Shown: in pieces, positions 4,031-36,502 of the stretch
Numbering within the stretch: the first letter of the stretch is position 1
Layout of the letters: the number at the start of each line of letters is the position of its first letter
DNA from: Deltaproteobacteria bacterium
GTDB lineage: Bacteria > Desulfobacterota > Desulfobacteria > Desulfobacterales > B30-G6
DNA: 64,000 nt
Reading direction: 5' to 3'
NCBI GenBank assembly: GCA_022340465.1
Contig: JAJDNW010000088.1
Coordinates: forward strand, 1 to 64,000
Notes under the pieces: model-generated
Told to the model about the DNA's origin: nothing
Seen by the model: only the letters and a program-made list of their open reading frames with translations
Databases searched by the model: none
Translations under genes and position numbers: made by a program

Positions 4031-4046
4031 TAGGTATATCCCGAAA

Positions 4047-14736: not shown

Positions 14737-15516
14737 TCAAGTTATCAGCGATCGTTCCCTTAAAATGTTAAGCAGTTGACCGGCCTTCTGCGCAGTGCTT
14801 CCCTCCAGGAAAACGGCATCCCTGGTTTTCTCCGGCAGGGCGACCCCTTCCAACGCCTGGGGAGAGTCTCCAGGGTCGAACACGTCCAGATCCACGATCT
14901 CCAGCTCGCGGCTGTTGGCCCGCAGCAATTTCGACAAGGCAGGGTATCGGGGGGTGTTGATACCGGTCTGGATCGTAAGAAGTGCCGGCAGCCTTATATC
15001 GCCGACCTCCCTGCAACCGCCTTCCACTTCGCGCTCCACGTACACCCTGTCGGTGCCTGCGGACAGGTCGATGGCGATGGTGCTGGTAACACAGGCCATG
15101 CCGAGATGGGCGGCAACGAGAGGGCCCACCTGAGCCTGCATCAGGTCTTCGGACATGGCGCCGGTCAGTATCAGATCATACGGCTGTTTTCGGGCATAGG
15201 CGGCAATGGCCGCTGCGGTTTTGAAAGCATCCACATAGGTGTCGGCCGCGGTCAGAATGTGAGCGCCGTTGTCGGCCCCCATCCCCATGGCCCTCCTGAC
15301 GACGGCTTCCGCGCGCTCCGGACCGGCGGTAACGACGTCGATGACGGTATCCGGATAAGCCTCTTTGATACGTACGGCTTCTTCAACGGCGCACTCGTCG
15401 AAACGATTCATGGCATAGGTTGCCGCGCCCCCGAGGCTGACCCAGCCGGTTGCGTCATCGATGCTGACCGGCGCATCGGATTCGGGCACCTGCTTTACAC
15501 AAACAAGTATCTTCAT
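14737..15516 (-). CDS. etfB: Electron transfer flavoprotein, beta subunit
   Basis: Small ETF subunit, about 259 residues. The N-terminus MKILVCVKQVPESDAP is typical. The AMP-binding signature region VEREVEGGCREVGDIRLPALLTIQTGINTPRYP is near residues 164-196. The frame could start at 15528, but the ATG at 15516 (or 15519) gives the standard beginning. A strong hairpin lies in the leader at 15533-15576. Gene order thiolase-etfB-etfA supports electron transfer from the acyl-CoA dehydrogenases of the same block. Confidence 0.93.
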   Translation of the reverse strand: MKILVCVKQVPESDAPVSIDDATGWVSLGGAATYAMNRFDECAVEEAVRIKEAYPDTVIDVVTAGPERAEAVVRRAMGMGADNGAHILTAADTYVDAFKTAAAIAAYARKQPYDLILTGAMSEDLMQAQVGPLVAAHLGMACVTSTIAIDLSAGTDRVYVEREVEGGCREVGDIRLPALLTIQTGINTPRYPALSKLLRANSRELEIVDLDVFDPGDSPQALEGVALPEKTRDAVFLEGSTAQKAGQLLNILRERSLIT

Positions 15517-15532
15517 CATACTCAACACATGT

Positions 15533-15581: not shown

Positions 15582-15679
15582 AAAAATAAATTTCACTTAT
15601 TTAAGCGTACGCAGGAGCATATGGATTAAAATAGCAATTATATCCCCTGACGGACGCCCATGTATAGAAATTTATTTTT
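15582..15679. repeat. 13-bp perfect inverted repeat in thiolase-etfB spacer
   Basis: AAAAATAAATTTC (15582-15594) and its exact complement GAAATTTATTTTT (15667-15679) bracket 72 bp. The second arm includes part of the thiolase stop codon. Together with the neighbouring hairpin it makes this spacer strongly foldable. Confidence 0.6.
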
Positions 15680-16889
15680 ACCAGTCGTAATCCTCCCGCT
15701 CGATGATGGTGGCCACACCTTGGCCGCCGCCACAGCAGGCATTGGCACAACCGTAACGTCCGCCTTTTTCACTGAGAATGCGCGCCAGCGTTCCTGTGAG
15801 ACGAACGCCCGTGGCCCCCAGGGGATGGCCGATAGCGGTTCCGCCGCCCATGACGTTGACCTTGTCCGGATCGATACCCAGTTCCTTGATGCAGTTGAGG
15901 GCCACGATGCAGAAAGCCTCGTTGATCTCCCAAAAATCGATGTCGGAAGCCTTCAAACCGGCTTTCTCCAAGGCTTTTTTTGAAGCCGGGACAGGACCCT
16001 GCCCCATGATGGTGGGATCCACACCGGCAAAGCCGATGGACCGGATGGTGGCCAGCGGCTTGATGCCCTTTTTTTTGGCTGTTTCCTTGGACATCATGAT
16101 CATGGAGGTTGCCGCGGCGTTCAAGGGTGAAGATATGCCCGCCGTGATCACCCCGTCCTTTTTAAAGGCCGGCCGCAACTGGGAAATGCCCTCTAACGTC
16201 GTATCCGCCCTGACGGCCTGGTCCGTGTCGACGGTCATGACGGATCCATCGGCCTGTTCGGCCTCGATAGGCAAAATTTCATCCTTGAAAAAACCGGCCG
16301 CCTGCGCTTTGGCGGCCAGCTCGTGGGAGCGAACTCCCCACTTGTCCATGTCTTCCTTGGTAAAATCGGTCTGAGCAAACAGCTTTTCGGCCGTCAGGCC
16401 CATGTTCATGCTGGTCATCATGTCCCAGTGCTGATACTCGGGCGCCATGAACAGGCTCATGTTGGGTTTGATGGCACCCCGGTCGAGGAGGTCCCCGCCC
16501 ATGGGGACACGGGTCATATGCTCCATGCCACCCACCATGACGACGTCGGCAAAATCCATGGCGATCTCCATGAAGCCGATGTGAATGCCGGCCATGGCGG
16601 AGCCGCACTGCTGGTCGACCCCTTTGGCCGCAATGGTGTCCGGCAGGTTGGCCAAAAAGATGGGGTAACGGCCGCCAAAGGAAAACTGCTCGCTGACGCC
16701 GGTGGCACAGCCTACGATAAAATCGTCGATCTCCTTGGCATCGATCCCGGTCCTTTTGATGGTTTCGGGAAGCAGTTTTCCCAAAAGCTCATCCGCCCGC
16801 ATCTTACCGAACCAGTCCCGGGCGGGATCGTTGGGTCTCGACCTGGATTGGGCGGTTCTCAGATATCCCGCAATAACGACTTCTTTCAT
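15678..16889 (-). CDS. Acetyl-CoA acyltransferase (thiolase)
   Basis: A 403-residue thiolase II family enzyme performing the last beta-oxidation step (3-ketoacyl-CoA + CoA to acetyl-CoA + shortened acyl-CoA). The nucleophilic Cys is in DQQCGSAMAG (Cys95), the catalytic His in GGGTAIGHPLGATG near residue 350, and the second Cys in GCANACCGGGQG near the C-terminus. The length is typical. It lies just downstream of the FadJ-like gene with a 53-bp gap; together they would be the alpha and beta parts of a trifunctional-type complex. Confidence 0.93.
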   Translation of the reverse strand: MKEVVIAGYLRTAQSRSRPNDPARDWFGKMRADELLGKLLPETIKRTGIDAKEIDDFIVGCATGVSEQFSFGGRYPIFLANLPDTIAAKGVDQQCGSAMAGIHIGFMEIAMDFADVVMVGGMEHMTRVPMGGDLLDRGAIKPNMSLFMAPEYQHWDMMTSMNMGLTAEKLFAQTDFTKEDMDKWGVRSHELAAKAQAAGFFKDEILPIEAEQADGSVMTVDTDQAVRADTTLEGISQLRPAFKKDGVITAGISSPLNAAATSMIMMSKETAKKKGIKPLATIRSIGFAGVDPTIMGQGPVPASKKALEKAGLKASDIDFWEINEAFCIVALNCIKELGIDPDKVNVMGGGTAIGHPLGATGVRLTGTLARILSEKGGRYGCANACCGGGQGVATIIEREDYDW

Positions 16890-16942: not shown

Positions 16943-19078
16943 TTAATTATTATAAAATTTCTTACCCGATTCAGCCATCGTCTTGATCATGCCGGCGGGT
17001 TTGAAATGCACCCCGTAGGCTTTTTCCAGCGCCACGAGCTTTTCATAGACCTTGTCGAGGCCCCACCTGTCGGCATAGCGCAGGATGCCGCCGCGGTAGG
17101 GCGGAAACCCCGTGCCGTAGATCATGGCCAGGTCCATGTCCTGGGGCCGGTCGCAGATGCCCTCTTCCATCATGTAGGCCGCCTCGTTGATGCCGTTGGC
17201 CAGCATCAGATCCACAATCTCCTGCTCCGGCACCTCCCTGGGGGTTACGCCATTGTCCGCATAATACGTTTTAACCACGTCGACCACTCTGGGGTTGGGC
17301 ACGGGCGCATCACCACTGTAGTCCATGTAGCCGGCTCCTGTTTTGCGCCCATAGTCTCCGATCTGGTAGATCAACTCGGTCAACGGATGAACGGCGTAGC
17401 GTTCGCCCAGTTTTTTTTCGAAGGTTTTGTTGACGTGGTAGTTGATGTCGATGCCGGTGAGGTCGGCCAGGGTTGCCGGCCCCATGGGCATGCCGAAATT
17501 CAACATGGCCTGTTCCACGGCTGCGCCGTCCACGCCGTCGGCAATCAGATACACGCTGCCGCCCATCAGCCCGCCAAGCTGCCGGGAGACATAAAATCCC
17601 GGCCCGTCGTTGACGACGATGGGCACTTTCCTGATGGACCGGCCAAAGGCGACGCTGGTGGCAAGGGTGGCGTCCGACGTCTTATCGGCGCAAATGATTT
17701 CCAGAAGCTGCATGCGGTGGGCCGGATTGAAAAAATGCAGACCGATCATGCGTCCCGGATCGGCAAGAACCGACGCCAACTCCGTAATAGGCAGCGCGGA
17801 GGTGTTGGTCCCGAAAACGGTGTGTTGCGGGCAGATGCCCTCGAGCTGTTTCCAGATGTCCTGCTTGACCTGCATGTTTTCCAGGACCGCCTCGATGACC
17901 AGGTCCACGTCCTTGAGGTCCTCCAGATTCGTGGTCGTGCTGAGCTGGTTCGCCAACATGGCGTCGAGGTCCTGCGGCTTCATCTTCCTTTTCTTGATGG
18001 GGTAGGCAAACGTTTTTTTCACCGAGGCCACCCCTTTTTCGAGGGCTGCGTCGTTGATGTCCCAAAGCGTGGTCTGATAGCCGCCTTTCAGCAGCAGATT
18101 GACGATGCCCGAACCCATGACACCCCCGCCCAGCATGGCCACCTTCTTTATCTTCGCGGGTTTGACGTCTTTGATCCGCGGCAGCCTCCCGGCGGCACGC
18201 GTATTCAGGAAAATGCCGATGAGATTCTTGGCCACATCCGACACCGCGCAATCGGCGAACAGGTCCACCTCCCGTTCCAGATCGGTGTCGATGTCATAGC
18301 TCAATCCCCGGTCGATGGCCTCCACCGCCTTCATGGGGGCGATGTACCCCTTGGATTGGGCCGCGGTCATGGCCTTGGTAACATCCATCACGGCCTTTTT
18401 CTCGGCGGCACTGGGCAGCCAAAAGTGCTGGTTGCGGGTCATCCGGGCTTTGCGGTTCAATTCTCCGCTCAAAAAACGGCGCGCGGCGGCCACGGCCGTC
18501 TCCACCAGATTATCCGCACCCACAACCTGATCCACCAACCCCCACCGGTGGGCCTTCTCCGCCTTGATGGGCTTGCCCATGGTAATCATTTCCAGGGCAT
18601 AGCGCAGAGCGATCAGGCGCGGCAGCCGCTGGGTGCCGCCGCCACCGGGAATCAGGCCGATCTGCACTTCAGGCTGTCCCAGGTTGATGCCTTCCGCCGC
18701 AACCCTGTAGTGGCAGCCCATGGCGATCTCGAGTCCTCCGCCCAGGCAGTTGCCGTTGATAGCCGCCACCACCGGCTTGGGTCCGGTCTCGATGCTGCTG
18801 ATAAAACGCGTGCCTTCCAGACCCAGCCCCAGGAGGTCCTCCTTTTTCTTCACGGTCAGAATCTGGGTGATGTCCGCGCCGGCGATGAAGTTCTTGCCGG
18901 TACCTGTAATCACAATGGCCTTTATCGCATCGTCCTCGTAGGCTCCTGAAAAGGCCTGGGCCAGTTCCTCCATAAAGTGTGGGGAAAGTTGGTTGACCGG
19001 TGGGTTGTCCATGGTGAACACGGCAACCCCGTCATTGACCGCCACGGCAATGGTTTTAAAATCGGTTTTCATAATCAC
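16943..19078 (-). CDS. Enoyl-CoA hydratase/3-hydroxyacyl-CoA dehydrogenase (FadJ/FadB-like)
   Basis: A 711-residue bifunctional beta-oxidation enzyme. Residues ~1-200 are the crotonase domain, with oxyanion-hole segments FIAGADI (around 65) and NCLGGGLEIAMGCHYRVAAEG (around 110-130; the catalytic Glu is in the family position). From ~310 comes the NAD-binding domain (AMLGGGVMGSGI), then two 3-hydroxyacyl-CoA dehydrogenase C-terminal domains (ADPGRMIGLHFFNPAHRM). It converts trans-2-enoyl-CoA to 3-ketoacyl-CoA. The size matches FadJ/FadB. Enoyl-CoA would come from the adjacent dehydrogenases and from AbfD (crotonyl-CoA). Confidence 0.93.
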   Translation of the reverse strand: MIMKTDFKTIAVAVNDGVAVFTMDNPPVNQLSPHFMEELAQAFSGAYEDDAIKAIVITGTGKNFIAGADITQILTVKKKEDLLGLGLEGTRFISSIETGPKPVVAAINGNCLGGGLEIAMGCHYRVAAEGINLGQPEVQIGLIPGGGGTQRLPRLIALRYALEMITMGKPIKAEKAHRWGLVDQVVGADNLVETAVAAARRFLSGELNRKARMTRNQHFWLPSAAEKKAVMDVTKAMTAAQSKGYIAPMKAVEAIDRGLSYDIDTDLEREVDLFADCAVSDVAKNLIGIFLNTRAAGRLPRIKDVKPAKIKKVAMLGGGVMGSGIVNLLLKGGYQTTLWDINDAALEKGVASVKKTFAYPIKKRKMKPQDLDAMLANQLSTTTNLEDLKDVDLVIEAVLENMQVKQDIWKQLEGICPQHTVFGTNTSALPITELASVLADPGRMIGLHFFNPAHRMQLLEIICADKTSDATLATSVAFGRSIRKVPIVVNDGPGFYVSRQLGGLMGGSVYLIADGVDGAAVEQAMLNFGMPMGPATLADLTGIDINYHVNKTFEKKLGERYAVHPLTELIYQIGDYGRKTGAGYMDYSGDAPVPNPRVVDVVKTYYADNGVTPREVPEQEIVDLMLANGINEAAYMMEEGICDRPQDMDLAMIYGTGFPPYRGGILRYADRWGLDKVYEKLVALEKAYGVHFKPAGMIKTMAESGKKFYNN

Positions 19079-19163: not shown

Positions 19164-20831
19164 TTACTTCCCTGCAGACTTTTCCAGCTCTTCCTGTCGC
19201 AGCACCTTGCGCAGAATTTTACCGACAGCCGATTTGGGCAGCTCTTCACGGAACTCGACTATTTTGGGCGCCTTGTAGGCGGCCAGCTTTTCCCGGCAAA
19301 ACGTCATAATCTCCTCTTCGGTGGCGCTTTCGCCGGGTTTAACCACCACGAAGGCCTTGACCGTTTCCCCCCGGTAGTCATCCGGTACCCCCACGGACAC
19401 GGCATCGGCCACCTTGGGGTGTTCGAAGAGAACCTCGTCGATTTCCCGGGGGTAGATGTTGTAGCCGCCGGCAATGATCATGTCCTTCTTGCGGTCCACG
19501 ATGGCAAAGTAGTCGTCGTCATCCTGCACCGCTATGTCCCCGGTGTACAGCCAGCCGTCCTTGAGCTGCCCTGCGGTTTCCTCGGGGTTGTTCCAATAGC
19601 CTTGCATGACCAGAGGGCTCTTGATGATCAACTCGCCCCGTTCACCCCTGGAAACATCCTCGGTGCCATTTTCGATATCCACAATTCTCACGTCCGTGTC
19701 CGGAAAGGGAATGCCGATGCTGCCGGCCTTGCTCATGCCCATCAGTGGATTGGCGATTCCCAGCGACGTGGTTTCGCTCATGCCCCAGCCCTCCCCGTAA
19801 TTGACGCCCATGTCCTGAGCCTGTTCGATGAGCTCCAGGGGCATGGGGCCGCCGCCCGAATTGAAAAGGCCCAGCCTCTTGGCCAAATTGATCTCGGTCG
19901 CCTTGGGGTGGTTGATGATGGCGTTGATCATGGTGGGAACGGCCGGAAAGAAGGTAATCTGGTCGAAGCCTTCCAGGATCCCCATGATCTCGTCCAGCTC
20001 GAAGCGGGGGGCGATGATCTGGGTGGCGCAGTTGAACATGGCCCAGCTGAGGACGACGATGGTTCCGTACACGTGAAAGTACGGCAGAACCGCCATGACG
20101 CTCCTCTTTTCAGGCGGCGTGAGGCCGGTGGTGGCAGCCCCCCACAGACTGCACTGCATGGCGGCGGCCACCAGGTTGGCGTGGGTCAGTACGGCGCCCT
20201 TGGGCAGGCCGGTGGTCCCCCCGGTAAACTGGATCAGGGCCGGGTCGTCAACCGCTATGTCGATTCTGGGCAACGAGGTGCTGGTGGATGCCTCCAGCAT
20301 CGTCGAAAAATGGTACCAGCCCTCCTCCAGTTCCAGTTCCGCCGGTGTACTCTGGCCAAAGCCGTCGATGTAGTCCGTCACCCGGGTGACGACGACCCGT
20401 GCGATATCGACCTCTTGGCACAATGCCCGGACATTGGGCAGGACCATGTCAAAGGTAATCAGCGTCGACACACCGGTGTTGGCGGTGAGGCCTTTGAGTT
20501 CCTCCGCCGTGTACATGGGGTTCAGGTTCACCACGACGGCTCCCAGGTACAGGGCCGCATAGTAGGAAATGATGTACTGGGGGCTGTTGGGTAGATGGAC
20601 GCCGACACGATCGCCTTTCGCGACACCGGCCTCCCCCAGGGCATGGGCCATGCGCAGTATCTGCGAGCGCAGTTCCCAAAAGGTCAACACCGTCCCAAAA
20701 AAATTGGTGGCGGCCTTGTCGGGAAAGGAACTGGCCGGAAGTTTGAGCAAGTCATGGGCCAAAATACTCGGGTAGCGGATGGTCTCCGGAACATTCCAGT
20801 CATAGTGCCGTTGCCATGGTCTAGATTTCAT
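19164..20831 (-). CDS. Long-chain acyl-CoA synthetase (AMP-forming)
   Basis: A 555-residue ANL-superfamily ligase activating a carboxylic acid to acyl-CoA with ATP. It has the P-loop-like motif FTGGTTGLPKG (around residue 205), YGEGWGMSE (near 347), the hinge region with GWLYTGDIA (near 434) and the C-terminal catalytic Lys in PKSAVGKILRK (near 540). Length matches FadD. It sits 85 bp upstream of the FadJ-like gene on the same strand. In the lva-type pathway the corresponding ligase activates 4-hydroxy or 4-keto acids, so it may take hydroxy acids (inference). Confidence 0.92.
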   Translation of the reverse strand: MKSRPWQRHYDWNVPETIRYPSILAHDLLKLPASSFPDKAATNFFGTVLTFWELRSQILRMAHALGEAGVAKGDRVGVHLPNSPQYIISYYAALYLGAVVVNLNPMYTAEELKGLTANTGVSTLITFDMVLPNVRALCQEVDIARVVVTRVTDYIDGFGQSTPAELELEEGWYHFSTMLEASTSTSLPRIDIAVDDPALIQFTGGTTGLPKGAVLTHANLVAAAMQCSLWGAATTGLTPPEKRSVMAVLPYFHVYGTIVVLSWAMFNCATQIIAPRFELDEIMGILEGFDQITFFPAVPTMINAIINHPKATEINLAKRLGLFNSGGGPMPLELIEQAQDMGVNYGEGWGMSETTSLGIANPLMGMSKAGSIGIPFPDTDVRIVDIENGTEDVSRGERGELIIKSPLVMQGYWNNPEETAGQLKDGWLYTGDIAVQDDDDYFAIVDRKKDMIIAGGYNIYPREIDEVLFEHPKVADAVSVGVPDDYRGETVKAFVVVKPGESATEEEIMTFCREKLAAYKAPKIVEFREELPKSAVGKILRKVLRQEELEKSAGK

Positions 20832-20978: not shown

Positions 20979-21033
20979 AAAATATCAGGGACGGCCTCTA
21001 TTTCGACTTTCAATCGGAACATACTTATGGCAA
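20979..21033. repeat. 55-bp dispersed repeat, copy 2
   Basis: Second copy of the 55-bp element at 3976-4030 (three mismatches, same orientation). It lies in the spacer between the acyl-CoA dehydrogenase stop (19 bp away) and the ligase start. Here it also has flanking arms GATTGAAA/TTTCAATC that copy 1 only partly keeps. Both copies have GTGCTC shortly before them, with a ~10-bp insertion in this one. Confidence 0.8.
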
Positions 21034-21052
21034 GGGCTATAACCCGCGGCGA

Positions 21053-22870
21053 TTACAGCCCGCCGAAGGCTGCTTCCGATATCTCCACCGCGGCTCCGGA
21101 GCCTTCCAGGACGGCGTCCATCTTGCCGCCGGCTACAGGCAGCACCGTTTGGATGAAAAATTCGGCGGACTTGATCTGGCCTTCATAAAAATTGACGTCC
21201 TTTTTCTTGGCGCCCTTGCCCAGCTTGTCGGCTGCGATCGACGCGCGCCACAGCAGCATCCAGGCCATGATCACATCGCCCATGGCCTCCATAAAGGGGA
21301 AGGCGTGGGCAAAAGCGGTTTTGAACGCCGGCGATACGCCCATCTTCCCCAGGTGCATGGCGGTTTCACCCAGCCGGTTCAGGGCGTGTTCCACCTTAGC
21401 GGCCAGCGCTGCCGTCGCTTCCTGCTCCTTTGCAGCCGCAATGGCCTTTTGAACCTCGCCCATGAAGTTCATGAAGACTTTGCCCTCCTGCATGCCCAGC
21501 TTGCGGCCCAGCAGATCCATGGCCTGGATACCGTCCGTGCCCTCGTAAATAGAGGCAATCTTGCAGTCCCGGGCCAGTTGTTCGACAGGGTACTCGCGCG
21601 TGTAGCCGTACCCGCCGTAAACCTGCATGGCCTCGATGCAGACGTCGAAGCCGCGCTGGGCACAATAGGCCTTGACCAGGGGCGTCAAGAGATCGGCCAG
21701 GCCCTGGTAGAATGCCTTTTCCTCCTCGTTTTCAGTGGTTTCCAAAATGTCAAAGCACCGGCCCACGTAGTAGACGAAGCTGCGCATGCCCTCGACATGG
21801 GCCTTCATCCCCAACAGCATGCGCCGGACATCCGGGTGACGGATGATCGGCACCTGGGGGGCTTCCTTGTCGGCAAGGTTGTCCATATCACGCCCCTGAA
21901 GCCTTTCCCGCGCATAGTTCACCGCGTAGAGGTAAGCCGTCGTGGCGTGGTTGAAACCCTGGAATCCTACTCCCAGGCGAGCCTCGTTCATCATGTAAAA
22001 CATGATGTGCATGCCCTTGTTCTCCTCTCCGAGCAGAAAACCCCGGCAGCCGCCCTTGCTGCCCAGGGAGATGCTGCAGGTAGCGGAGGCGTGGATGCCC
22101 ATCTTTTCCTCGATCCCGGTACAGACCACGTCATTGGGCTCACCCAGGCTGCCGTCCGGGTTCACCCATATTTTGGGAACCAGAAAGATGGAGATGCCCT
22201 TGGTGCCGGCCGGCGCCCCTTCGATGCGGGCCAGAACGGGGTGGATGATGTTTTCGGCCAGGTCATGCTCACCGTTGGTGATGAAAATCTTGTCGCCTTT
22301 GATGGAATAGGTGCCGTCAGGGTTCTTTTCAGCCGTGGTTGTGAGGGCGCCAACGTCTGATCCCGCGTTCGATTCGGTGAGCAGCATGGTCCCTCCCCAG
22401 ACACCGGTGTACAGTTTTTTCAGGAACAGATTTTTCTGCTCCGCCGTCCCGAAAAGCTCCACCATTTTACCCGTCCCATGGCCCATGCGGGCGTAGTTGA
22501 CCAGGGCGTAGTTGCCGCCGGTGATGTATTCGCTGGCGGCAAGACTGATGAGATTGGGCAGCCCCTGCCCCCCCACTTCAGGGTCTTCGGTCAGAGACGT
22601 CCATTCATTTTCGATGACCAGTTCATGCGGACGGCGAAAGCACTCGGGCACCTTGACCTGCCCCTTTTCGAAGGTCAGGCCGATTTTGTCGCCTTCCGCA
22701 TATGTGGGCAGGAGTTCCTTGATCGCAAAGCTGCGGGCTTCTGAAATGATCATGTCGAACACCTTGCGGTTCAAATCCGCAAACTTGTCGTGTTTAAGCA
22801 GGGCTTCCGCGTCCAGCTGCTCGTAAAGTGCGAATTCAATATCGCGGCGATCTGCAATTACCTGTGCCAT
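21053..22870 (-). CDS. Acyl-CoA dehydrogenase, long form (~600 residues)
   Basis: A 605-residue acyl-CoA dehydrogenase with the extra C-terminal helical domain found in the long bacterial ACADs. It oxidises acyl-CoA to trans-2-enoyl-CoA with electrons to ETF. The FAD/substrate motif MLLTESNAGSDVGAL is near residue 155, and the catalytic Glu lies in IYEGTDGIQAMDLLGRK near residue 440. The remaining ~150 residues are the family-specific tail. It lies 221 bp ahead of the ligase gene and 53 bp downstream of the kinase-like gene, on the same strand. Confidence 0.92.
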   Translation of the reverse strand: MAQVIADRRDIEFALYEQLDAEALLKHDKFADLNRKVFDMIISEARSFAIKELLPTYAEGDKIGLTFEKGQVKVPECFRRPHELVIENEWTSLTEDPEVGGQGLPNLISLAASEYITGGNYALVNYARMGHGTGKMVELFGTAEQKNLFLKKLYTGVWGGTMLLTESNAGSDVGALTTTAEKNPDGTYSIKGDKIFITNGEHDLAENIIHPVLARIEGAPAGTKGISIFLVPKIWVNPDGSLGEPNDVVCTGIEEKMGIHASATCSISLGSKGGCRGFLLGEENKGMHIMFYMMNEARLGVGFQGFNHATTAYLYAVNYARERLQGRDMDNLADKEAPQVPIIRHPDVRRMLLGMKAHVEGMRSFVYYVGRCFDILETTENEEEKAFYQGLADLLTPLVKAYCAQRGFDVCIEAMQVYGGYGYTREYPVEQLARDCKIASIYEGTDGIQAMDLLGRKLGMQEGKVFMNFMGEVQKAIAAAKEQEATAALAAKVEHALNRLGETAMHLGKMGVSPAFKTAFAHAFPFMEAMGDVIMAWMLLWRASIAADKLGKGAKKKDVNFYEGQIKSAEFFIQTVLPVAGGKMDAVLEGSGAAVEISEAAFGGL

Positions 22871-22923: not shown

Positions 22924-23994
22924 TTATAGTTTCGACTTTTCGATAATGCGCATGGCGGCCCGCTCCAGAATACCGGTGACGCCGCCAAGCACCTTGAAAC
23001 GTTCGTCCTGCGTCTGGCCATGGTAGAAACGATAGTAAATCTGCTGGACGATGCCCGCCAGTTTGAACAGACCGAAGCAGTAGTAAAAATCATAGTGCCG
23101 CATGGATCGGCCGGAAAGGCTTTCGTAGCAGGCCACCAGTTCGCGGCGCGTCAGGGCACCCTGCGCATTGGTGGGAACCGTCCGGATAAGTTGCATCTCT
23201 TCAGGATCGCCTTCCTCCACCCAGTAGGCCAGGGTACCGCCCAGGTCCATCAGGGGATCGCCCAGGGTGGTCATTTCCCAATCCAGAACGCCGATGATAT
23301 TCAAAGGATTTTCCGGATCGAGCACCACGTTGTCAAATTTGTAGTCGTTGTGGATAATGCACGGCGAATCGGTATCCGGCGGCATTTTCTCCTGAAGCCA
23401 GGACATCACCGTCTCGGCGTCGGGCACGTCGGGCGTGCGGGCGGCCCGGAAGCGCCGGCTCCACCCGGTGACCTGGCGCTCCACATACCCCTCGGGTTTA
23501 CCGAAATCCCCCAGCCCGATCTTGTCGTAATTCACGTCGTGCAGCGCATAAAGCACCTGCATGAGGTTCCGACAAAGCTGCGTTACACCATAAGGCTCCA
23601 GGCCCAGCGAGGACGGGATCTCCTTTCTCAGAACAATTCCCTGAATCCGATCCATGACATAGAAGGGACACCCCATCACAGCAGGATCCTCGGTGTAAAC
23701 CAAGGGCTGAGGGCAGTATGGATATACCGGTGCAAGGGCTTTTAGCACCGTGTACTCCCGCTTCATGTCATGGCCCGATTTGGGTTTGGTGCCGAACGGG
23801 GGGCGGCGCAGCACCATTTCCCGGCCGCCCATGGTGATAAGATAGGTCAGATTCGACGCCCCGCCGGGAAACTGCTGGACGGTCATCTCCCCCGCAAGGC
23901 CGGGAACGGCCCCGCGCAGAAAGGCCTCGACCTTTACGGCGTCGAGCGCCTCGCCCTTTCTTACCGCGGCGGCTTGATCGATGTGCTCCATCAT
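22924..23994 (-). CDS. ACAD10/11-type phosphotransferase (LvaA-like 4-hydroxyacyl-CoA kinase)
   Basis: About 356 residues of the aminoglycoside-phosphotransferase fold. It has the Lys-containing nucleotide region REMVLRRPPFGTKPKSGHD (near residue 60), the catalytic loop IIHNDYKFDNVVLD (near 210) and the metal Asp in GVLDWEMTTLGDP (near 230). The N-terminal segment FPGGASNLTY is typical of the kinase domain of ACAD10/ACAD11 and of LvaA of the levulinate pathway, which phosphorylate the 4-hydroxyl of 4-hydroxyacyl-CoAs. The frame is open to a TTG at 24012, but ATG at 23994 has AAGGAAAG 8-15 nt upstream. An ACAD11-type dehydrogenase gene lies 288 bp upstream, supporting the assignment. Confidence 0.85.
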   Translation of the reverse strand: MMEHIDQAAAVRKGEALDAVKVEAFLRGAVPGLAGEMTVQQFPGGASNLTYLITMGGREMVLRRPPFGTKPKSGHDMKREYTVLKALAPVYPYCPQPLVYTEDPAVMGCPFYVMDRIQGIVLRKEIPSSLGLEPYGVTQLCRNLMQVLYALHDVNYDKIGLGDFGKPEGYVERQVTGWSRRFRAARTPDVPDAETVMSWLQEKMPPDTDSPCIIHNDYKFDNVVLDPENPLNIIGVLDWEMTTLGDPLMDLGGTLAYWVEEGDPEEMQLIRTVPTNAQGALTRRELVACYESLSGRSMRHYDFYYCFGLFKLAGIVQQIYYRFYHGQTQDERFKVLGGVTGILERAAMRIIEKSKL

Positions 23995-24282
23995 GGATAA
24001 GCTTTCCTTCAATTTTTAGCCGCTCAACTAAACACTACTTCCCATTCTATACTGCTTCTAGAAGGGACCAGGGGTCCAGGGTTCAAGGATTCGAGTGGAA
24101 AAGTAGCCCATAGCTGATGGCTGCCAAAAGCTAACAGCAAAGAGCATTCACCTGAATAACAACATCGCAAGTTTCTGGATAGAACCACCGGTACCTTCCA
24201 AGGATCTTCCCTATTTAGCCATGTTGTTTATGCAACCTCGGGGTTCACTTGGCCCCTCGGCCCCTGACCCCTCGAATCCTGC

Positions 24283-25488
24283 TTACTTGACCACCTTGCC
24301 TTCGTATTCCTTCAATATCCTGCGGGCCACCGATACCTTGTGGACCTCATCGGCGCCGTCGTAGATTCGGGATGCGCGTTCGTGGCGGTAAAAGAAGGAG
24401 ATGATCGTGTCGTCCGTCATGCCCAGCCCGCCGTGCACCTGAAGGGCCCTGTCAATCACCTTCTGCATGGTGTTGGCCACCACGAACTTGATCAGGGAAA
24501 TATCCTGGCGAGCTTCCTTGACGCCCACGTTTTCAATGGTCCACGCGGTGTGCAGCACCATCAGGCGGGCCGCCCTGATTTCGGCCGCACATTCGGCAAT
24601 CCATGACTGGATGATCTGCTTGCTCGCCAGGGTTTTCCCGGGGGCGATGATCCGTGTCATCGCCCTGTGGCACATCAAATCGAAGACCCTGTTGCAGATG
24701 CCGATCCAACGCATGCAGTGATGAATCCTGCCCGGGCCGAGCCGGTCCTGGGCAATGATGAAGGCCTGCCCTTCGGGGCCTAGCAGGTTTTCCTGCGGCA
24801 CACGGCACGACTGATAGAGAATTTCGCCATGACTGAAATAGTCATCCCCGGCATGGCCCATCACCGGAATGTTGCGCACCAAATTGAAGCCCGGTGTGTC
24901 CGTGGGGACGATGATCATGCTCGTACGCAAATAGGGGGCCTCATCGGGATTGGTCACCGCCATGACGATAGCAAATGCCGCTCCGTCGGCGGAAGATGTG
25001 TACCACTTGTGGCCGTTGATGACATAATCGTCCCCGTCTTTGATGGCGGTGGTATCCATCATAACCGGGTTCGAACCGGGAAGGTCCACCTCGGTCATGG
25101 AAAAACAGGAACGAATCTGTCCATCCACCAGCGGCTTGAGCCACCGCTTTTTCTGCTCCTCCGAACCGTATTTGTAAAGGATCTCGATATTGCCCGCGTC
25201 CGGCGCCTGGCAGCCGAACGCCAGAAATCCCAGGGGAGTCCCGCCCAGAACCTCCGAAACCAGGCCGTGTTCGACAAGGTTGAGCCCCATGCCCCCGTAC
25301 TCCTTGGGATGGTTGGGTGCCCACAGCTCCATCTTTTTAACCATGGCCTGCTTCTCCCTGATAACCGGTATCATACTGCTGGCGTCTTTGGTAAGAAACT
25401 CGGGCTCGAGGGGAATGAGTTCCTTTTCGACAAATTCTTTCATCATCCCTAAAATGGTCTGCATTTTCTCGGAAATAGTGAAATCCAT
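24283..25488 (-). CDS. ACAD10/11-type acyl-CoA dehydrogenase (LvaC-like)
   Basis: A 401-residue acyl-CoA dehydrogenase that most resembles the ACAD domain of ACAD10/11. It shares QAPDAGNIEILYKYGSEEQ near residue 95 and DRLGPGRIHHCMR near residue 248. The usual catalytic Glu segment (YEGT) is replaced by YDGADEVHK near residue 380, again as in ACAD11. In that family the enzyme eliminates phosphate from 4-phosphoacyl-CoA and isomerises to enoyl-CoA rather than doing simple dehydrogenation. With the kinase gene just downstream this forms a split LvaA/LvaC pair; in animals the two domains are fused. Confidence 0.87.
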   Translation of the reverse strand: MDFTISEKMQTILGMMKEFVEKELIPLEPEFLTKDASSMIPVIREKQAMVKKMELWAPNHPKEYGGMGLNLVEHGLVSEVLGGTPLGFLAFGCQAPDAGNIEILYKYGSEEQKKRWLKPLVDGQIRSCFSMTEVDLPGSNPVMMDTTAIKDGDDYVINGHKWYTSSADGAAFAIVMAVTNPDEAPYLRTSMIIVPTDTPGFNLVRNIPVMGHAGDDYFSHGEILYQSCRVPQENLLGPEGQAFIIAQDRLGPGRIHHCMRWIGICNRVFDLMCHRAMTRIIAPGKTLASKQIIQSWIAECAAEIRAARLMVLHTAWTIENVGVKEARQDISLIKFVVANTMQKVIDRALQVHGGLGMTDDTIISFFYRHERASRIYDGADEVHKVSVARRILKEYEGKVVK

Positions 25489-25649
25489 GTTACCTCCTCC
25501 TCGTTAGAAACAGTCGCTCGTTTTTCCAGACCGGATCAATCCCCCACCGGTTTGATCCGTGAGCCGATCGGGTACCGGCGACGGTTTCCAATGCAAATAA
25601 ATGTTCGTGTTCCGGGTTTATCTGAGTTCGCTGACATTCCAGCGGTTGC

Positions 25650-27131
25650 CTATATGTCTCCATCCGTTGCGTGAGGGTTGTCGTGAAAATCGATGCCGCA
25701 GAGTTTTTTGGCCGCCTTTTTCTTGGCCTCCATGTTCACCTTCCTTGAAATCATGATGCGCTGGGCCTGAGGCGAGCCGGCCCCGTGCATCGATTCCGTC
25801 AGGTAGCCTACCGCCGCCGTTCCCAGCGTCAGGTTTTCGATCAGCCGCAGGATGCGCGCGCGGTGTTCGGTGGGAACGTCAGGATGGGCCTTGTAGTATT
25901 TCTCGAGCCACGGCCCGACTTCCGGCGAATTGAAATCCTTTTCGCTCGGCAGCGTTACCATCAGACCGCCGGCGATATCCTGTGCCAGCCTGGAAATTTC
26001 ATAGGGAAAACGCGTGACGTTGTGCTTGTGGATGTTGGCCAACAGCGTGTTCACCGAAAAGGTGCCGCTGGGTTCGCGGTGACCTTCGGAGGCACAGGCG
26101 ATGCAGCCACAGTAGAGCGTTTCGTTCAGGTGGTTCATTTCGACGATTTTGTCCTTGATGTGGGAGGCATGGTCCGCCCGGTTGAACTCCGCGGCGGTCT
26201 GGGCGGCCCCGATGAGCACATCCCCCACACCAACCTTGCAGGCATAGCTCTGACGGTGGTAGCCGGCAAACACTTCCACCAGCTGACCGGCAAACGCATA
26301 TTCCCGGCACATGAACACCCGCTCCCAGGGAACAAACACATTTTCAAATACCACCAATGCCTCGTGCCCGCCAAAAAAGGGGTTGCCCCGATCGATGAGG
26401 CCCTCCTCCAGCTTGCGGGTGTCACAGGATTGGCGCCCCATGATGTAAGTGATCCCCTCGGCGTCGCTGGGAAGGGCAAACGAAACAGCGTAGTCCCTGT
26501 CCGCCTCTCTCAGCGCAATGGTGGGCATCACGATGACCTCGTGAGAGTTTAGAGCACCTGTCTGGTGCGCCTTGGCGCCTTTGACCACGATACCGTCTGG
26601 CCGCTCCTCCACGATATGCAGGTACAGGTCGGGGTCTGCCTGTTTGTGCGGTGGAAGACTCCTGTCTCCTTTGGGGTCCGTCATGGCGCCGTCACAGGTG
26701 AAATCATTGTCCTGTACATATTCCAGGTATTTCAAAAACCGTTGATTGTATTCCGTACCGTGTTTCCGGTCGATGTCGAACGTCACGATCGAGAGGGCGT
26801 TCAGGGCATCCATGCCGACACATCTCTGAAAACAACAACCCGTCTCCCTTCCCAGAAGGCGGCCCATTTTGCTTTTCTTCACGAGGTCCAGAAGGCTCTG
26901 GTGTATGTGGGTGAAGCGGTTGATCCGTTTACCGCTGAGGTGGGAAATCGCGGTCATGAGGTCTTCGTGTTCGGGCCTGTGGGCCAGTGCGTACGTCTTG
27001 GCAACCGCCTGCATGGACGGCCGGATGATGGGATGATCCACCACGTTCTCAATGCGTTCGCCGAACATGTAGACCACCAGGTTCAATTTCCGCAGGCTGT
27101 CTTCATATTGTTCCGCAGTCATCATGGCCAT
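25650..27131 (-). CDS. abfD: 4-hydroxybutyryl-CoA dehydratase / vinylacetyl-CoA isomerase
   Basis: A 493-residue FAD and [4Fe-4S] enzyme that dehydrates 4-hydroxybutyryl-CoA to crotonyl-CoA by a ketyl-radical mechanism. The HpaB-type fold is recognisable. Cys100 and Cys104 (GCCFQRCVG) and His292/Cys298 (YHRQSYACK) lie where the clostridial enzyme has its cluster ligands (C99, C103, H292, C299). Length matches the family (~490). The ATG at 27131 is preceded by AGGGGGTAGGCC. Its product enters the FadJ/thiolase steps encoded in the same block. It is followed upstream on the strand by an odd thioredoxin, 41 bp away. Confidence 0.9.
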   Translation of the reverse strand: MAMMTAEQYEDSLRKLNLVVYMFGERIENVVDHPIIRPSMQAVAKTYALAHRPEHEDLMTAISHLSGKRINRFTHIHQSLLDLVKKSKMGRLLGRETGCCFQRCVGMDALNALSIVTFDIDRKHGTEYNQRFLKYLEYVQDNDFTCDGAMTDPKGDRSLPPHKQADPDLYLHIVEERPDGIVVKGAKAHQTGALNSHEVIVMPTIALREADRDYAVSFALPSDAEGITYIMGRQSCDTRKLEEGLIDRGNPFFGGHEALVVFENVFVPWERVFMCREYAFAGQLVEVFAGYHRQSYACKVGVGDVLIGAAQTAAEFNRADHASHIKDKIVEMNHLNETLYCGCIACASEGHREPSGTFSVNTLLANIHKHNVTRFPYEISRLAQDIAGGLMVTLPSEKDFNSPEVGPWLEKYYKAHPDVPTEHRARILRLIENLTLGTAAVGYLTESMHGAGSPQAQRIMISRKVNMEAKKKAAKKLCGIDFHDNPHATDGDI

Positions 27132-27172: not shown

Positions 27173-27538
27173 TTAACCTGGATTGGCTGACACCGGCGGA
27201 AGATGCTCTTCCAGAAAATCCCGCAGACGATCCTCGTCCGCCATACCCAGCAGGCGTCCAATTTCCCGTCCCCGGTGCAGCAGCAGGAATATGGGCGTCC
27301 CCTTTATGGTGTACATCTGCTTGAAACCGTTAATGAAGCCTTCCTCCAACCGGCACACTTCCACGGAATCCGGATATAACCGGGAAATCGCTTTTAGAAC
27401 CCCGGTCTGTTGTGTGCAGTCCCTCCCTCCGGGCGCACACATCAGCAATACCGGCTTTTCTGTTGAGAGAACCGCCGCTTCGAAATTGCTGTTGCTGATA
27501 ATGTTTACCGGATAAATGGATGCGATCGTCGTGTTCAT
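27173..27538 (-). CDS. Thioredoxin-like protein lacking the CxxC motif
   Basis: A 121-residue thioredoxin-fold protein. The fold is supported by the central strand VLLMCAP, the cis-Pro segment KGTPIFLLL (Pro82) and the C-terminal helix. The redox motif is not CxxC: Cys34 and Cys41 are six residues apart (CAPGGRDC), and Trp is absent. It is immediately upstream of abfD (41 bp between), so it may protect or assemble that oxygen-sensitive Fe-S enzyme; this is inference. GGGAA lies ~6 nt before the ATG. Function cannot be settled from sequence. Confidence 0.75.
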   Translation of the reverse strand: MNTTIASIYPVNIISNSNFEAAVLSTEKPVLLMCAPGGRDCTQQTGVLKAISRLYPDSVEVCRLEEGFINGFKQMYTIKGTPIFLLLHRGREIGRLLGMADEDRLRDFLEEHLPPVSANPG

Positions 27539-31203: not shown

Positions 31204-33324
31204 TTACCTTGGACGCGCGAGACCGTATTTATCGATACGGCGATAAATGGTGCGGCGGCTGATGCCCAGGTTCCGGGCGGCTTTGGCGACGTTCCAGTCG
31301 GTGTTGCCGAGAGCGCGTTCGACAGCGTGCCGGTCCTCCCGCTGCGATTTCATCTCAACCGGCCTCCCTCTGGGGGTGTGGTCGCGCATCTCCCTGGGCA
31401 GATGCCCGACGTCGATGGTGCTGTCGTGGCACAGAACGAACGCATGCTCCACCGTGTGTTCCAGTTCGCGCACGTTGCCCGGCCAGTTGTATCCCATAAA
31501 CACATTCAGGACTTCATCGGAAAAGGATTGGATCTCCTTATTAAAATCGCGGTTGAAGGAGCGGCGAAAGTGATCCACTAAAAGGGGAATGTCACCCAGA
31601 CGCTCCCGCAACGGTGGAAGGGCGATTTCCACGACCTTCAGCCGGTAGTAAAGATCCTCCCTGAAACTACCTGCGGCAACGGCGCTTTTGAGATCCCTAT
31701 TGGTGCAGGCGATTATCCTGACATCCGCCTTCATGGAGGTGGGATCGCCTACCCGTTCAAAGGTCTTCTCCTGCAGAAACCGGAGCAGCTTCAATTGAAT
31801 CAGGGGTGAAATATCGCCGATTTCGTCAAGGAAAATCGTACCGCCGTCCGCTGTTTCAAAGCGCCCCGGAGAACTTTTTACCGCCCCTGTAAAAGCGCCT
31901 TTGACGTGGCCGAACAGTTCGCTTTCCAAAAGGTTTTCCGCCAAAGCAGAGCAATTGACCGTAACAAACGGTTTGAACGCACGATTCCCGCCGTTGTGGA
32001 GCGCTTTGGCTACCAACTCCTTACCGGTCCCGCTTTCGCCTGTTACCAGCACCGTCGTCTCCAGATCGGCGAGGTCTTCGAGAAGCTTGTAAATCTCCTG
32101 CATCCGGCGATTTTTACCGATGATTCTTTGAAACCGATGCCGCTCTTCCAACTCCTTTTCCAGTTCGTTGATACGGGTGATATCCCGGATGACCAGCACG
32201 GCCCCCATAAAACGGCCCGCACTGTCCAAGAGAGGGGAACTGGAAACATCCACCTTTTGCATGGGATGCGAACCCCCGGCGCATTCGATCTGGTAGCCCT
32301 GCACCGTGGTTTTGCGATTCAGGGTTTCCTGAAGCACTTCGTGGCAGGCATGGCCGCACCCGACCGGGCATTCGGTGAACACTTTCCCGACGATACGACC
32401 CAAATCGAAACCGCAAATCGTTGCCGCCGCCTGGTTGGCCTCGATCACCTCGAGGTTGGTGTCTACCGTAATGATGGCGTCCCTGACACTGCGAAAAATG
32501 GCCTTGAGGCGGCTCCGCTGCCTGGCAACATCCTCTTCGGCCCGCTTTCGCTCGGTAATATCGCGCACGATGCTGCGAAAGCCGATGGGCATGCCGCGTG
32601 AATCTTTTTTCAGGGATATGGAATATTCCAGAATCTTTTTTCTGCCGGTGCCGGTAAGGGTTTCGAAAATGAACGAACGCTGGGGGACACCCGTGGAATA
32701 CACGTCGTTGAAGGCGATGTAACAGGCCTCGGCCGCCGTTTGATCGGTCATTTCACGATAGTTCAGGCCGATCAGCCTTTCCCGCGGGGCCTCGAATATC
32801 CTGGCGATGGCTTCGTTGATGAAAATGGTGTTTCCTGCCAGGTCGTTCTCAATGTAGCCGTCCTCGATACCATCGAGGACGGTTTTGTAGTTCTCTTCCG
32901 ATTCCTGCAAAGCCGCTTCACGGGCCTTGAGGGCACTTATGTCCTGAAGGGAGCCGATGGTCACGGGCGGGTCGTCGCCGGGGGTGAGAAGCGGCCAGGC
33001 GCCGGTTACCCACAAAAGCGTGCCGTTCCGACGGCGGACACGAAAAATCTCCGTTCCAGGAGGGTCTCCACCAGCCTGCAAACCCGCTTCCGGTTCAAAC
33101 GGCCGCCAATCGGCGGTATAAACGATGTCGATAAACGCACGACCGATCAGATCCCCGGGGTCATCGTATCCCAGCAGTGTCGCCATTGCCTGATTGACAT
33201 TCGTGAACACCGTGCCGGTCAGCACGTAGGCAGGCTCGACCAGGTGTTCGATTGCCTTTGCGGCGGCTTCCCAACCGCCTGCCGATCGCATGCGCTCCTC
33301 ATGCTTATCGGGAGCGTCCGCCAT
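31204..33324 (-). CDS. Sigma-54-dependent regulator with three PAS domains
   Basis: About 706 residues. Three PAS-type domains fill residues ~30-370; the third contains cysteines ([11 protein letters not shown] and [11 protein letters not shown]). The AAA+ domain has Walker [16 protein letters not shown], the sigma-54-binding GAFTGA loop (in [15 protein letters not shown]), Walker B FLDEIGD and arginine-finger region. The C-terminus is a Fis-type helix-turn-helix ([20 protein letters not shown]). The start at 33324 has AAGGGGGGAAG upstream and overlaps the end of the OYE gene by 20 bp, so it is likely co-transcribed with it and may regulate that reductase. Confidence 0.92.
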
Positions 33325-34426
33325 CTTCCCCCCTTTCCACGACGCAATAGATGCCCCGCCCGGCCATGGCCGGCCCGAAGCACTTGTTGTCCGACAGGCA
33401 AGTGGCTTTGGCATGGTCACCGGACTGCCAGCGTTTGACCAGTCCGGGTTCGCGGATAAACGGCCGGCTCATGGAAATGTAGTCTGCCACGCCCTCCGAC
33501 ACGATGCGCGCGGCGACCTCTAAGGAACGGTTGCCACCGACCAGGATCAGAGGTACACTGGTTTTCCCACGAATGGTTCCGGCTTCCGTCTCAAAATACG
33601 CCTCTTTATCGGCCGAGTGGATGCCCATCCTGCTGGGGCTCAGCTTTCTATTGATTATGAGGCCGCCGCTCACCTCGATGGCGTCGATGCCTCCCTGTTC
33701 CAACATCTCCGCCACACTGGCTGCGTCCTCAGCATGCAGGCCGCCTTCCCGAAAATCCCCGCTGTTCATTTTCACCAACACGGGATAATCGCTTCCCACA
33801 CGGTTGCGCACGGCCTCCAGCACCATGAGCAGCATCCGGGCCCGATTCTCGACAGTTCCGCCCAAATCATCCGTGCGCTGGTTGTACACGGGCGACAAAA
33901 ACTGGCTGAGCAGATAACCGTGGGCCGCATGTATCTGGACACCGTCAAAGCCCGCCTCACGGGCCCTGTACGCCGCGGCGGCAAAGGCGTCCACCACACG
34001 GGTGATGTCGTTATCATCCATTGCCCTGCATGGTGCCCGGGAAAGGCCTTCAACAGCGGAAGGCGCCAGCGGTGTCTGCCCCGTCAGCTTATGAAAGGCG
34101 TGCAGACCGGCATGGGCGATCTGGGCCACAATGCTGCCCTGGTTGTCGTGAACCGCGGCGGTCATTTTGGATAGCCCCGGAACAAGACCGTCATCGTAGA
34201 TGCCAAGCTGCCGCGATCCAGCCTGCCCCTCCCTGCTTACATAGGCATGACTGCTGATAATCAGCCCCACCCCCCCTTTGGCAAGCTCTACCATCAGGCT
34301 TGTCAGTTCTGGAGTTACGGAACCGTCGTCCCCGGCCAGGCCTTCCCACGTCGCCGAACGGACGAAACGATTGTTCAGTGTCATGCCGCTTATGTTTGTT
34401 TTTTCAAACAGTTGATCCGTGTTCAT
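33305..34426 (-). CDS. Old yellow enzyme family NADH:flavin oxidoreductase
   Basis: A 373-residue FMN-dependent TIM-barrel ene-reductase. Key segments are the N-terminal [15 protein letters not shown] and [27 protein letters not shown] around residues 172-198, which carry the His pair and the conserved Asn-Gln-Arg-Asp-Gly-Gly region, with [12 protein letters not shown] near the phosphate site. It lacks the C-terminal Fe-S/FAD extension of the larger neighbour. It would reduce activated C=C bonds such as enones or enoyl compounds. The stop lies 20 bp inside the following regulator gene. 75 bp separate it from the bigger reductase upstream. Confidence 0.9.
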
Positions 34427-34501
34427 TGTGCATCTCCCTTTGCAGGTGGGGATGTCCTTGACATAGCACCTCTATTGCCTTTCATTCCTCTTCGTTAACG
34501 A

Positions 34502-36502
34502 TTAGACCTTCCTCCCTGCCTCGAACCCACCGTGGACGGCGTCGAAAGCCAGGGCTATCTTGGCGGCGTCGCCCGCCACCCGACAGGGGATGCCCATCTT
34601 CTCGACGGGTTCCTGCAGCGGGTTGTGAGCCTCCGAACCCATCGCCAGGACCACGGAATCGGCAGGAATTTCCTCTGCCTTGCCGTCCTTTTCCACGACG
34701 ACCCCGGTTTCCGTTATTTCCAGAGCCCTGGTTGACACACTGGTTTTGACCCCGATGCGGGAGATCTCCTGCAGCATCCCCCAGCGGGTGGAAAGACCGA
34801 TGCCCTTGCCGATTCTTTTGAGCATTTCGATGAGCACGATCTCCTTGGTGCCGTGTGTGGCCATTGCCAGAAGGTCTTCGGGTGATTCGGCCCCGTTGAC
34901 CAGCAGAAACTTCACCGCGTCTCCCGAAAGGGTTCCTTTTTCCGCCAGGAAAAGTGCGGTTTCCACCCCCACGGCCCCGCCGCCGATGACGACGACCCGC
35001 TTCCCGGTATATACCTTGTCCTGCAGCACGTCCCAGGCCTGGACCACGTGGGGAAGGCCGACGCCCTTGACAGGCGGTTTGATGGGACGCGCGCCGGTTG
35101 CCAGAATAACGCTGTCCGGATCTTCACCGGCGATGAGCTTTTCATCGACGCCCGTGTTCAGCGACACCTTTATACCGTTGACCGCCACCTGAGCAGCCAG
35201 GTCCCGGGCCAGTTCCGCGAACTCATCCCTTCCCGGGGGAGCCGCCGCCAGAAAAAGCTGCCCGCCCAGTCGATCCGCCTGTTCGTAGATCGTGACCTCG
35301 TGGCCGCATTCGCGGGCGGCCAAGGCGGCACTCATGCCCGCCGGACCACCGCCGACAACCATCACTCTCTTCGGACTATCGGTAACCCCGGCGCGGCACT
35401 CCAATTCATGGCCGGCTTTGGGATTGCACAGGCACTCCACGGCCTTACCCCTGAATATATTGTCGAAGCATCCCTGGGCACAGGCGATGCAGTGTACGAT
35501 TTCGTTTTCCCGACCGCTCCTGGCCTTTTCAGGAAGAAAAGGATCGGCGATCAGGGAACGCCCCATGGCCACCATGTCACACACACCGTCGCCGATCATT
35601 TCCCTGGCAACAGCCGGGTCGTTGATCCGGTGGCTGGCGATCACGGGAATGTCCACCAGGTCCTTGATTCCCCTGGCCAAATAACCAAACACCCCGCGGG
35701 GAACGGAAGTGACGATCTGCGGTACCCTGGCTTCATGCCAGCCTACATTGATGCACAGGGCATCCACCCCCGCCTTAACCAGTGCCACGGCGTATTCCTG
35801 CAGTTCCCTGCGTCCCTGACCGCCCGGCATGAAATCATTGCCGTTCATACGCACGATCAGTGGGAAATCACCGCCCGTTGCGGCCTTGATTTTGCGCACG
35901 ATCGTAAGACCGAAACGCATTCTGTTTTCATAGGTTCCGCCGTATTCGTCACTGCGCTGATTGGTCAACGGTGAAAGAAACTCGGAAATGAGATACCCTG
36001 TTCCGCTCAACACCTCCACCGCATCGAAACCGGCCTTTTTTACGCGTGCAGCTGCAGCCGCAAAGCTATCGATGATGCTGCCGATCTCATCGTGCCGTAG
36101 TTCACGCGGCACCTCCTTGGTGAGCCGGGAGGCGATGGGTGAAGGCGCCACCGGCTTGTTGCCCCCCATCAGAAAAGAAAAATTGTACCGACCGGCATGA
36201 TTGATCTGCACGGCACTGCGCGCCCCGTTTTCCCTGATGCCGCCGGCAAGCTTCGAAAGGCCCGGTAGATAGGCATCATCATGCGCACCGATGTTCAAAG
36301 GAGACCCCGAGCGTTCATCGACGGTGGCAAAGCCCACACTGATCATGCCGACGCCCCCCCGCGCCCGTTCTGCATAAAATTCGACCATCCGGTCGGTCAC
36401 TTCGTAGTTTTGCGCCATGTTCAAGTGCATGGCCGGCAGATAGATCCTGTTTTTGACCTCCAGACGGTTGATTCTGATGGGGCTGAAAATCGGATCCTGC
36501 AT
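34502..36502 (-). CDS. 2,4-dienoyl-CoA reductase-like flavoenzyme (OYE + Fe-S + FAD/NAD)
   Basis: A 666-residue enzyme with the FadH/trimethylamine-dehydrogenase layout. It has an FMN TIM-barrel (1-~330), a [4Fe-4S] ligand set C-x2-C-x3-C-x11-C (CIACAQGC ... ECLC near 340-355), an FAD-binding Rossmann motif (VVGGGPAGMSAALAARECG, near 383) and an NAD-binding motif (VVIGGGAVGVETALF, near 505). It passes electrons from NAD(P)H through FAD and the cluster to FMN. A role in dienoyl-CoA or other unsaturated-acid reduction, or trimethylamine-type amine oxidation, fits; the substrate is uncertain. Flanked by two sigma-54 regulators. Confidence 0.9.
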   Translation of the reverse strand: MQDPIFSPIRINRLEVKNRIYLPAMHLNMAQNYEVTDRMVEFYAERARGGVGMISVGFATVDERSGSPLNIGAHDDAYLPGLSKLAGGIRENGARSAVQINHAGRYNFSFLMGGNKPVAPSPIASRLTKEVPRELRHDEIGSIIDSFAAAAARVKKAGFDAVEVLSGTGYLISEFLSPLTNQRSDEYGGTYENRMRFGLTIVRKIKAATGGDFPLIVRMNGNDFMPGGQGRRELQEYAVALVKAGVDALCINVGWHEARVPQIVTSVPRGVFGYLARGIKDLVDIPVIASHRINDPAVAREMIGDGVCDMVAMGRSLIADPFLPEKARSGRENEIVHCIACAQGCFDNIFRGKAVECLCNPKAGHELECRAGVTDSPKRVMVVGGGPAGMSAALAARECGHEVTIYEQADRLGGQLFLAAAPPGRDEFAELARDLAAQVAVNGIKVSLNTGVDEKLIAGEDPDSVILATGARPIKPPVKGVGLPHVVQAWDVLQDKVYTGKRVVVIGGGAVGVETALFLAEKGTLSGDAVKFLLVNGAESPEDLLAMATHGTKEIVLIEMLKRIGKGIGLSTRWGMLQEISRIGVKTSVSTRALEITETGVVVEKDGKAEEIPADSVVLAMGSEAHNPLQEPVEKMGIPCRVAGDAAKIALAFDAVHGGFEAGRKV

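Follow-up and report, generated by a model that had tools for sequence, protein, structure and literature searches.

A beta-oxidation gene block of a Desulfobacterales genome probably has two separable entries for 4-hydroxyacyl-CoAs, an AbfD-type dehydratase and an ACAD10/11-type kinase and dehydrogenase pair

Mammals, and among bacteria for example Pseudomonas and Burkholderia, are already known to remove a 4-hydroxyl group at the expense of ATP. The acyl-CoA dehydrogenase (ACAD) proteins ACAD10 and ACAD11 of mammalian 4-hydroxy acid catabolism, together with bacterial homologues, have been shown to perform kinase and phosphate-elimination chemistry; for ACAD10/11 and for a pair from Burkholderia, the reactions are demonstrated or proposed (PMC11342911, PMC12440821). 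LvaC, from the Pseudomonas putida levulinate operon (LvaA-LvaB-LvaC-LvaD-LvaE), is 56–62% identical to ACAD10/11 (PMC11342911). This study concerns a stretch of 64,000 nt, here called the window, from contig JAJDNW010000088.1 of a Deltaproteobacteria bacterium (assembly GCA_022340465.1; order Desulfobacterales), in which an ACAD10/11-type kinase-fold protein (KIN) and an ACAD10/11-type acyl-CoA dehydrogenase (ACADk) are encoded next to a 4-hydroxybutyryl-CoA dehydratase (HBD). For AbfD, the described dehydratase with which HBD is compared below, a ketyl-radical mechanism is established, and enzymes of this type also isomerise vinylacetyl-CoA. In order of transcription, on the minus strand, the block specifies a thioredoxin-fold protein, HBD, ACADk, KIN, FadE, FadD, FadJ, thiolase, EtfB, EtfA and a short-chain dehydrogenase/reductase (SDR). 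The block most likely encodes two 4-hydroxyacyl-CoA routes that differ in chemistry, and is probably one of beta-oxidation with two separable 4-hydroxyacyl-CoA entries, HBD and KIN-ACADk. The genome also carries dsrA (617 bits; cut-off 393), so that the host is likely to be a sulfite-reducing anaerobe.

The three central genes were picked out in a preliminary description of the window; they and the motifs quoted for them are present, all three frames are open and intact on the minus strand, and the similarities are not due to chance. ACADk (24283–25488, 401 amino acids) is predicted to convert 4-phosphoacyl-CoA to 2-enoyl-CoA by phosphate elimination. Its closest solved relatives are human ACAD11 (PDB 2wbi), 4hr3 of M. 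abscessus and mouse ACAD11 (8v3u and 8v3v), with E values of about 1e-80, compared with 1e-46 for the best ordinary ACAD among solved structures. In two trees, which are quick searches without LvaA and LvaC and use mouse ACAD11 and Burkholderia and Thermus operons as markers, ACADk groups with ACAD11 and 4hr3 (support 100), and Clostridium Bcd and the window genome's own ACADs fall outside this clade. ACAD10/11-type activity is defined by R626, H634, C635, M636, R637 and the catalytic D753 of ACAD11 (PMC12440821), all of which are retained in ACADk (RHCMRD), where Bcd has TIAAQE. Nearly all ACADk relatives share these residues, and about 120 of those counted have the HCMR motif and an Asp replacing the catalytic Glu. 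On the tree and the active-site residues, the reading of 24283–25488 as an ordinary ACAD is rejected, and the earlier assignment of this protein to the ACAD10/11 type holds. Within the clade, ACADk sits in a subclade separate from that of ACAD10 and ACAD11, mostly of Desulfobacterota but with members also in Spirochaetes, Planctomycetes and Acidobacteriota.

KIN (22924–23994, minus strand, 356 amino acids; Pfam APH, 164 bits) is a predicted APH-fold kinase that would phosphorylate 4-hydroxyacyl-CoA. It starts at an ATG at 23994 preceded by AAGGA, with an upstream TTG at 24012 as a possible alternative. Among solved structures it is closest to 9o56, 3dxp and the kinase domain of ACAD11 (E 6e-96 to 1e-46). 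R86, R176, D220 and N225 of the ACAD11 kinase (one lower in PDB chain numbering) align with conserved R, R, D and N in KIN, and the catalytic Asp/Asn, the DWE metal site and the CoA-contacting Arg residues of the fold are all conserved. KIN is also a standing neighbour of ACADk: in a survey of 80 loci with ACADk, where each count is given over the loci that can be judged, 51 of 65 have it no more than 2.5 kb downstream. The tree places KIN in a subclade (support 92) with 9o56 and with kinases from Azospirillum, Deinococcus, Gemmatirosa and a plasmid of Rhodobacteraceae; the kinase of ACAD11 falls in another clade (support 99), together with 3dxp, one kinase from Burkholderia and a second one encoded by the window genome. 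Since a window-type kinase adjoins an ACAD11-type dehydrogenase on Azospirillum and Rhodobacteraceae plasmids, the evidence argues that the two subclades do the same job. The matching of KIN to the kinase half of ACAD10/11 in the preliminary description therefore stands as to residues and neighbourhood, but not as to membership of the ACAD11 kinase subclade; no grouping of ACADk with ordinary ACADs, or of KIN with unrelated phosphotransferases, was seen.

The second kinase of the window genome (G000, contig C106, locus L016, 8311–9408), of the ACAD11 subclade, lies beside genes for an enoyl-CoA hydratase and an AMP ligase, without ACADk. The same trio is present in two genomes of the window's genus (G001, locus L209; G002, locus L210), and several genomes without a window-type KIN carry a kinase of about the identity of the C106 kinase. 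Tandem KIN pairs follow ACADk in the cultured Desulfatibacillum alkenivorans (L061, 12003–14250) and in a metagenome-assembled genome of the Syntrophaceae (L092, 11933–14129). Desulfosarcina alkanivorans, also in culture, likewise carries ACADk and KIN (L073).

HBD (25650–27131, minus strand, 493 amino acids; Pfam HpaB_N and HpaB) lies directly upstream of ACADk, and its naming as a 4-hydroxybutyryl-CoA dehydratase was borne out. The best solved relatives are AbfD (1u8v, 65% identity, E 1.6e-206) and 6vjr (59%, E 1.3e-186); HpaB monooxygenases match far more weakly. The [4Fe-4S] ligands C99, C103, H292 and C299 are identical in 1u8v and 6vjr and absent from HpaB 2yyk. At seven further active-site positions known from AbfD, HBD is identical to AbfD and the HpaB monooxygenase differs. 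All cluster and active-site residues compared match those of AbfD and 6vjr, and the stretch from H292 to C299 is one residue shorter than in AbfD, as it is in 6vjr. HBD is very likely a good 4-hydroxybutyryl-CoA dehydratase, with crotonyl-CoA as the predicted product; compared with AbfD, it is set in a beta-oxidation operon. A second such dehydratase is encoded on contig C114 of the window genome (L015, 168–5604), 58% identical to HBD and with key residues intact, and its neighbours specify a distant APH kinase, the C-terminal part of a thiolase, a ChsH2-type zinc ribbon, an SDR and an enoyl-CoA hydratase. A similar HBD (57%), with an APH kinase nearby, occurs in another genome (G030, contig C73, L164). 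The clade of ACADk, the residues and standing neighbourship of KIN, and the residues of HBD together make it very likely that two chemically distinct routes are encoded side by side, as first proposed.

The neighbourhoods indicate how the two routes are related. EtfB is encoded upstream of ACADk in 39 of 65 loci, and an SDR at least 50% identical to that of the block is found within 5 kb downstream in 19 of 50; TetR regulators and histidine phosphatases also recur. HBD is within 5 kb of ACADk in two of 30 loci. In the window's genus, one genome (G001) has the order HBD-KIN-FadE-FadD-FadJ-thiolase-EtfB, with no ACADk between HBD and KIN, and a second (G002, 81% complete) has HBD directly before FadE without ACADk or KIN there, the only kinase found in it being of the ACAD11 type. 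Each carries another ACADk elsewhere, 64–65% identical. A truncated KIN in G001 might be taken for a remnant, but that idea was rejected, as a run of N in the scaffold cuts through the gene. A genome of a sister genus (G003) has a carboxyltransferase, FadE, FadJ and thiolase after ACADk-KIN, and its HBD lies on another contig. FadE of the block type adjoins HBD in four genomes (G002, G012, G050 and G236). What recurs across these neighbourhoods is ACADk-KIN on the one hand and HBD-FadE on the other, the two being joined in the window, and since G001, G002 and G003 keep one module without the other, or keep them apart, HBD and ACADk-KIN are read as separable modules that occur together in the window genome and do not form an obligate single pathway.

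The strongest competitor is a single dedicated 4-hydroxy/4-oxo-acid pathway, maintained by selection, in which HBD serves C4 and KIN-ACADk serves C5 and longer chains, a strong form of what the preliminary description had envisaged. It could draw on the placing of both modules on one strand of one beta-oxidation block, the recurrence of the block SDR beside ACADk, a second neighbourhood that joins ACADk and HBD (in G151, below), and co-occurrence across the order. Among 291 genomes of the order, ACADk is present in 97 and HBD in 91, and both are found in 59 where 30 are expected (36 genera against 21), an excess inflated by relatedness and a shared fatty-acid lifestyle. The window thiolase, tried as a control, occurs in 25 of the 291 genomes and is too narrowly distributed to correct for lifestyle. 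Carrying both routes is, on the count of 59, usual in the order. HBD and ACADk lie within 5 kb of each other in just two of those 59 genomes, the window genome and G151, where a second, independent neighbourhood reads ACADk-TetR-HBD (L046, 9989–13494). There, HBD (51%) stands in a position often taken by KIN, and no window-type KIN was seen in this single-contig genome; in G236, the two genes are 14 kb apart. Each system is of a known kind and common in the order, but their adjacency is rare and is not kept in the closest relatives. An obligate HBD-ACADk partnership is rejected on the sister genomes and the order survey, and data for ACAD10/11 on a C4 substrate, looked for in PMC11342911 and PMC12440821, were not found there. 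With adjacency limited to the window and one survey locus, the joint pathway of the preliminary description was not sustained; we regard it as unlikely, with perhaps one chance in a few of being correct.

Under the favoured scheme of two separable entries, the reactions and substrates are read from residues, clades and neighbouring genes. In the first entry, HBD would dehydrate 4-hydroxybutyryl-CoA to crotonyl-CoA by a [4Fe-4S]/FAD ketyl-radical mechanism. In the second, which would follow the course taken by ACAD10/11 and LvaA/LvaC, KIN would use ATP to phosphorylate 4-hydroxyacyl-CoAs at the 4-hydroxyl. Its substrates would probably be secondary alcohols with five or more carbons. ACADk would then eliminate phosphate to give trans-2-enoyl-CoA, its FAD being reduced and re-oxidised on the substrate so that the step is redox-neutral. 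A split in which HBD would take the primary C4 alcohol and KIN-ACADk the secondary alcohols is chemically sensible and plausible. Both products would pass to the FadJ-type enoyl-CoA hydratase/3-hydroxyacyl-CoA dehydrogenase (16943–19078) and the thiolase (acetyl-CoA acyltransferase, 15678–16889; above cut-off for NCBIfam PRK06445 and TIGR01930). Saturated rounds would be handled by the FadE-like acyl-CoA dehydrogenase (21053–22870, 605 amino acids; Pfam ACAD domains with a PF12806 C-terminus), which has the ordinary catalytic Glu (YEGT), together with EtfB (14737–15528; NCBIfam EtfB models) and EtfA (13749–14723), the latter 13 bases after EtfB and recurring with it near ACADk in other genomes. 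FadJ, thiolase and EtfBA follow on the same strand, as had been described, and FadJ is preceded by a FadD-like acyl-CoA ligase (19164–20831; Pfam AMP-binding, NCBIfam long-chain ligase models). The SDR (12962–13720; Pfam adh_short_C2) is a candidate 4-oxo/4-hydroxyacyl-CoA oxidoreductase that may interconvert these two forms, and could have an LvaD-like role; it is 55% identical to the SDR of an Azospirillum ACAD-kinase operon and 57% to a Burkholderia one. At the other end, 41 bases upstream of HBD, is the thioredoxin-fold gene (27173–27538; Pfam Thioredoxin, 30 bits), which has C-x6-C in place of CxxC. All of these genes are on the minus strand with intergenic gaps of 13–288 bases, which would allow a single transcript or a few, and they may be co-transcribed.

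Like ACAD10 and ACAD11, the pair combines a kinase fold and an ACAD fold with the key residues of both conserved, but KIN and ACADk are two separate proteins and there is no HAD domain. The arrangement recalls the levulinate operon in that kinase and HCMR-type ACAD have a gene each and are accompanied by genes of beta-oxidation, an acyl-CoA ligase and an SDR, here one with a candidate LvaD-like role. Several points weigh against the proposed scheme. ACADk is only 38–39% identical to ACAD11, well below the figure for LvaC, which suggests that LvaC, although not in our tree, lies on another branch. The catalytic loop of KIN is HND where ACAD11 has HGD, and no biochemistry on any member of the ACADk or KIN subclades was found in the literature. 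FadD is of a generic long-chain type that does not fix the substrates, and the co-occurrence of the two routes could in part stem from a lifestyle based generally on beta-oxidation. DUF6285 (PF19802), which we take to be LvaB and which adjoins the kinase in a Thermus operon, is absent from the 95% complete window genome; ACAD10/11, for their part, function without LvaB. A strict lva operon is rejected on this absence and on the distance of the proteins, and a strict LvaA/LvaC identity of the pair is not supported, the subclades being different.

It is also possible, though improbable and slightly less likely than the dedicated pathway, that ACADk and KIN apply the same phosphorylation-elimination chemistry to some other hydroxylated acyl-CoA, such as a 4-hydroxyacyl-CoA with a branched or aromatic side chain. 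The separate subclades of both proteins, the HND loop and the separate kinase subfamily would suit this, but the same kinase subfamily pairs with ACAD11-type ACADs in other phyla, and for that reason we argue for the same class of substrate. A still less probable option makes HBD mainly an isomerase of 3-enoyl- to 2-enoyl-CoA for unsaturated chains, leaving KIN-ACADk as the sole 4-hydroxy route: vinylacetyl-CoA isomerisation is a known side activity, 6vjr is named Vinylacetyl-CoA Delta-isomerase, and two proteins of the NADH:flavin oxidoreductase family, possibly dienoyl-CoA reductases, are encoded at 33305–36502, but the dehydratase residues compared, Fe-S ligands included, are all kept at 65% identity to AbfD and HBD carries no sequence sign of a lost dehydratase reaction. 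A reading of ACADk as an ordinary acyl-CoA dehydrogenase, with KIN as some unrelated phosphotransferase, would agree with the Etf genes of the block, but is very improbable given the fully supported ACAD11 clade, the Asp and HCMR kept across the relatives, and a FadE with the ordinary Glu already present.

Some non-coding features were also noted. The 288 bases that separate ACADk from KIN (23995–24282) contain, by eye, GC-rich inversely repeated stretches (GGGGTCAGGGGCC... and ...CCTGGACCCCTGG). A 68-nt intergenic repeat, 90% identical, occurs at 3976–4043 and 20979–21046, the latter copy between FadE and FadD, and directly before the first copy a 29-nt stretch (3879–3907) matches sequence upstream of ACADk in locus L169. 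A pair of 54-nt inverted repeats, 96% complementary, lies 9 kb apart (42800–42853 and 51939–51992). An Rfam search of the window gave no match.

The open-access literature searched yielded no account of ACAD10/11-type pairs from sulfate reducers. We tentatively suggest, at somewhat less than even chances, that sulfate reducers of the Desulfobacterales have a two-route repertoire, with HBD for the primary C4 alcohol and the kinase-eliminase for longer secondary alcohols, combined by some lineages in one beta-oxidation operon. If true, this would represent an anaerobic catabolism of 4-hydroxy acids (gamma-lactones, 4-oxo acids) not described in the literature searched. In an order of anaerobes, roughly one in three of the genomes surveyed is now seen to have a divergent but residue-complete form of the ATP-spending machinery, which often accompanies the ATP-free radical dehydratase.

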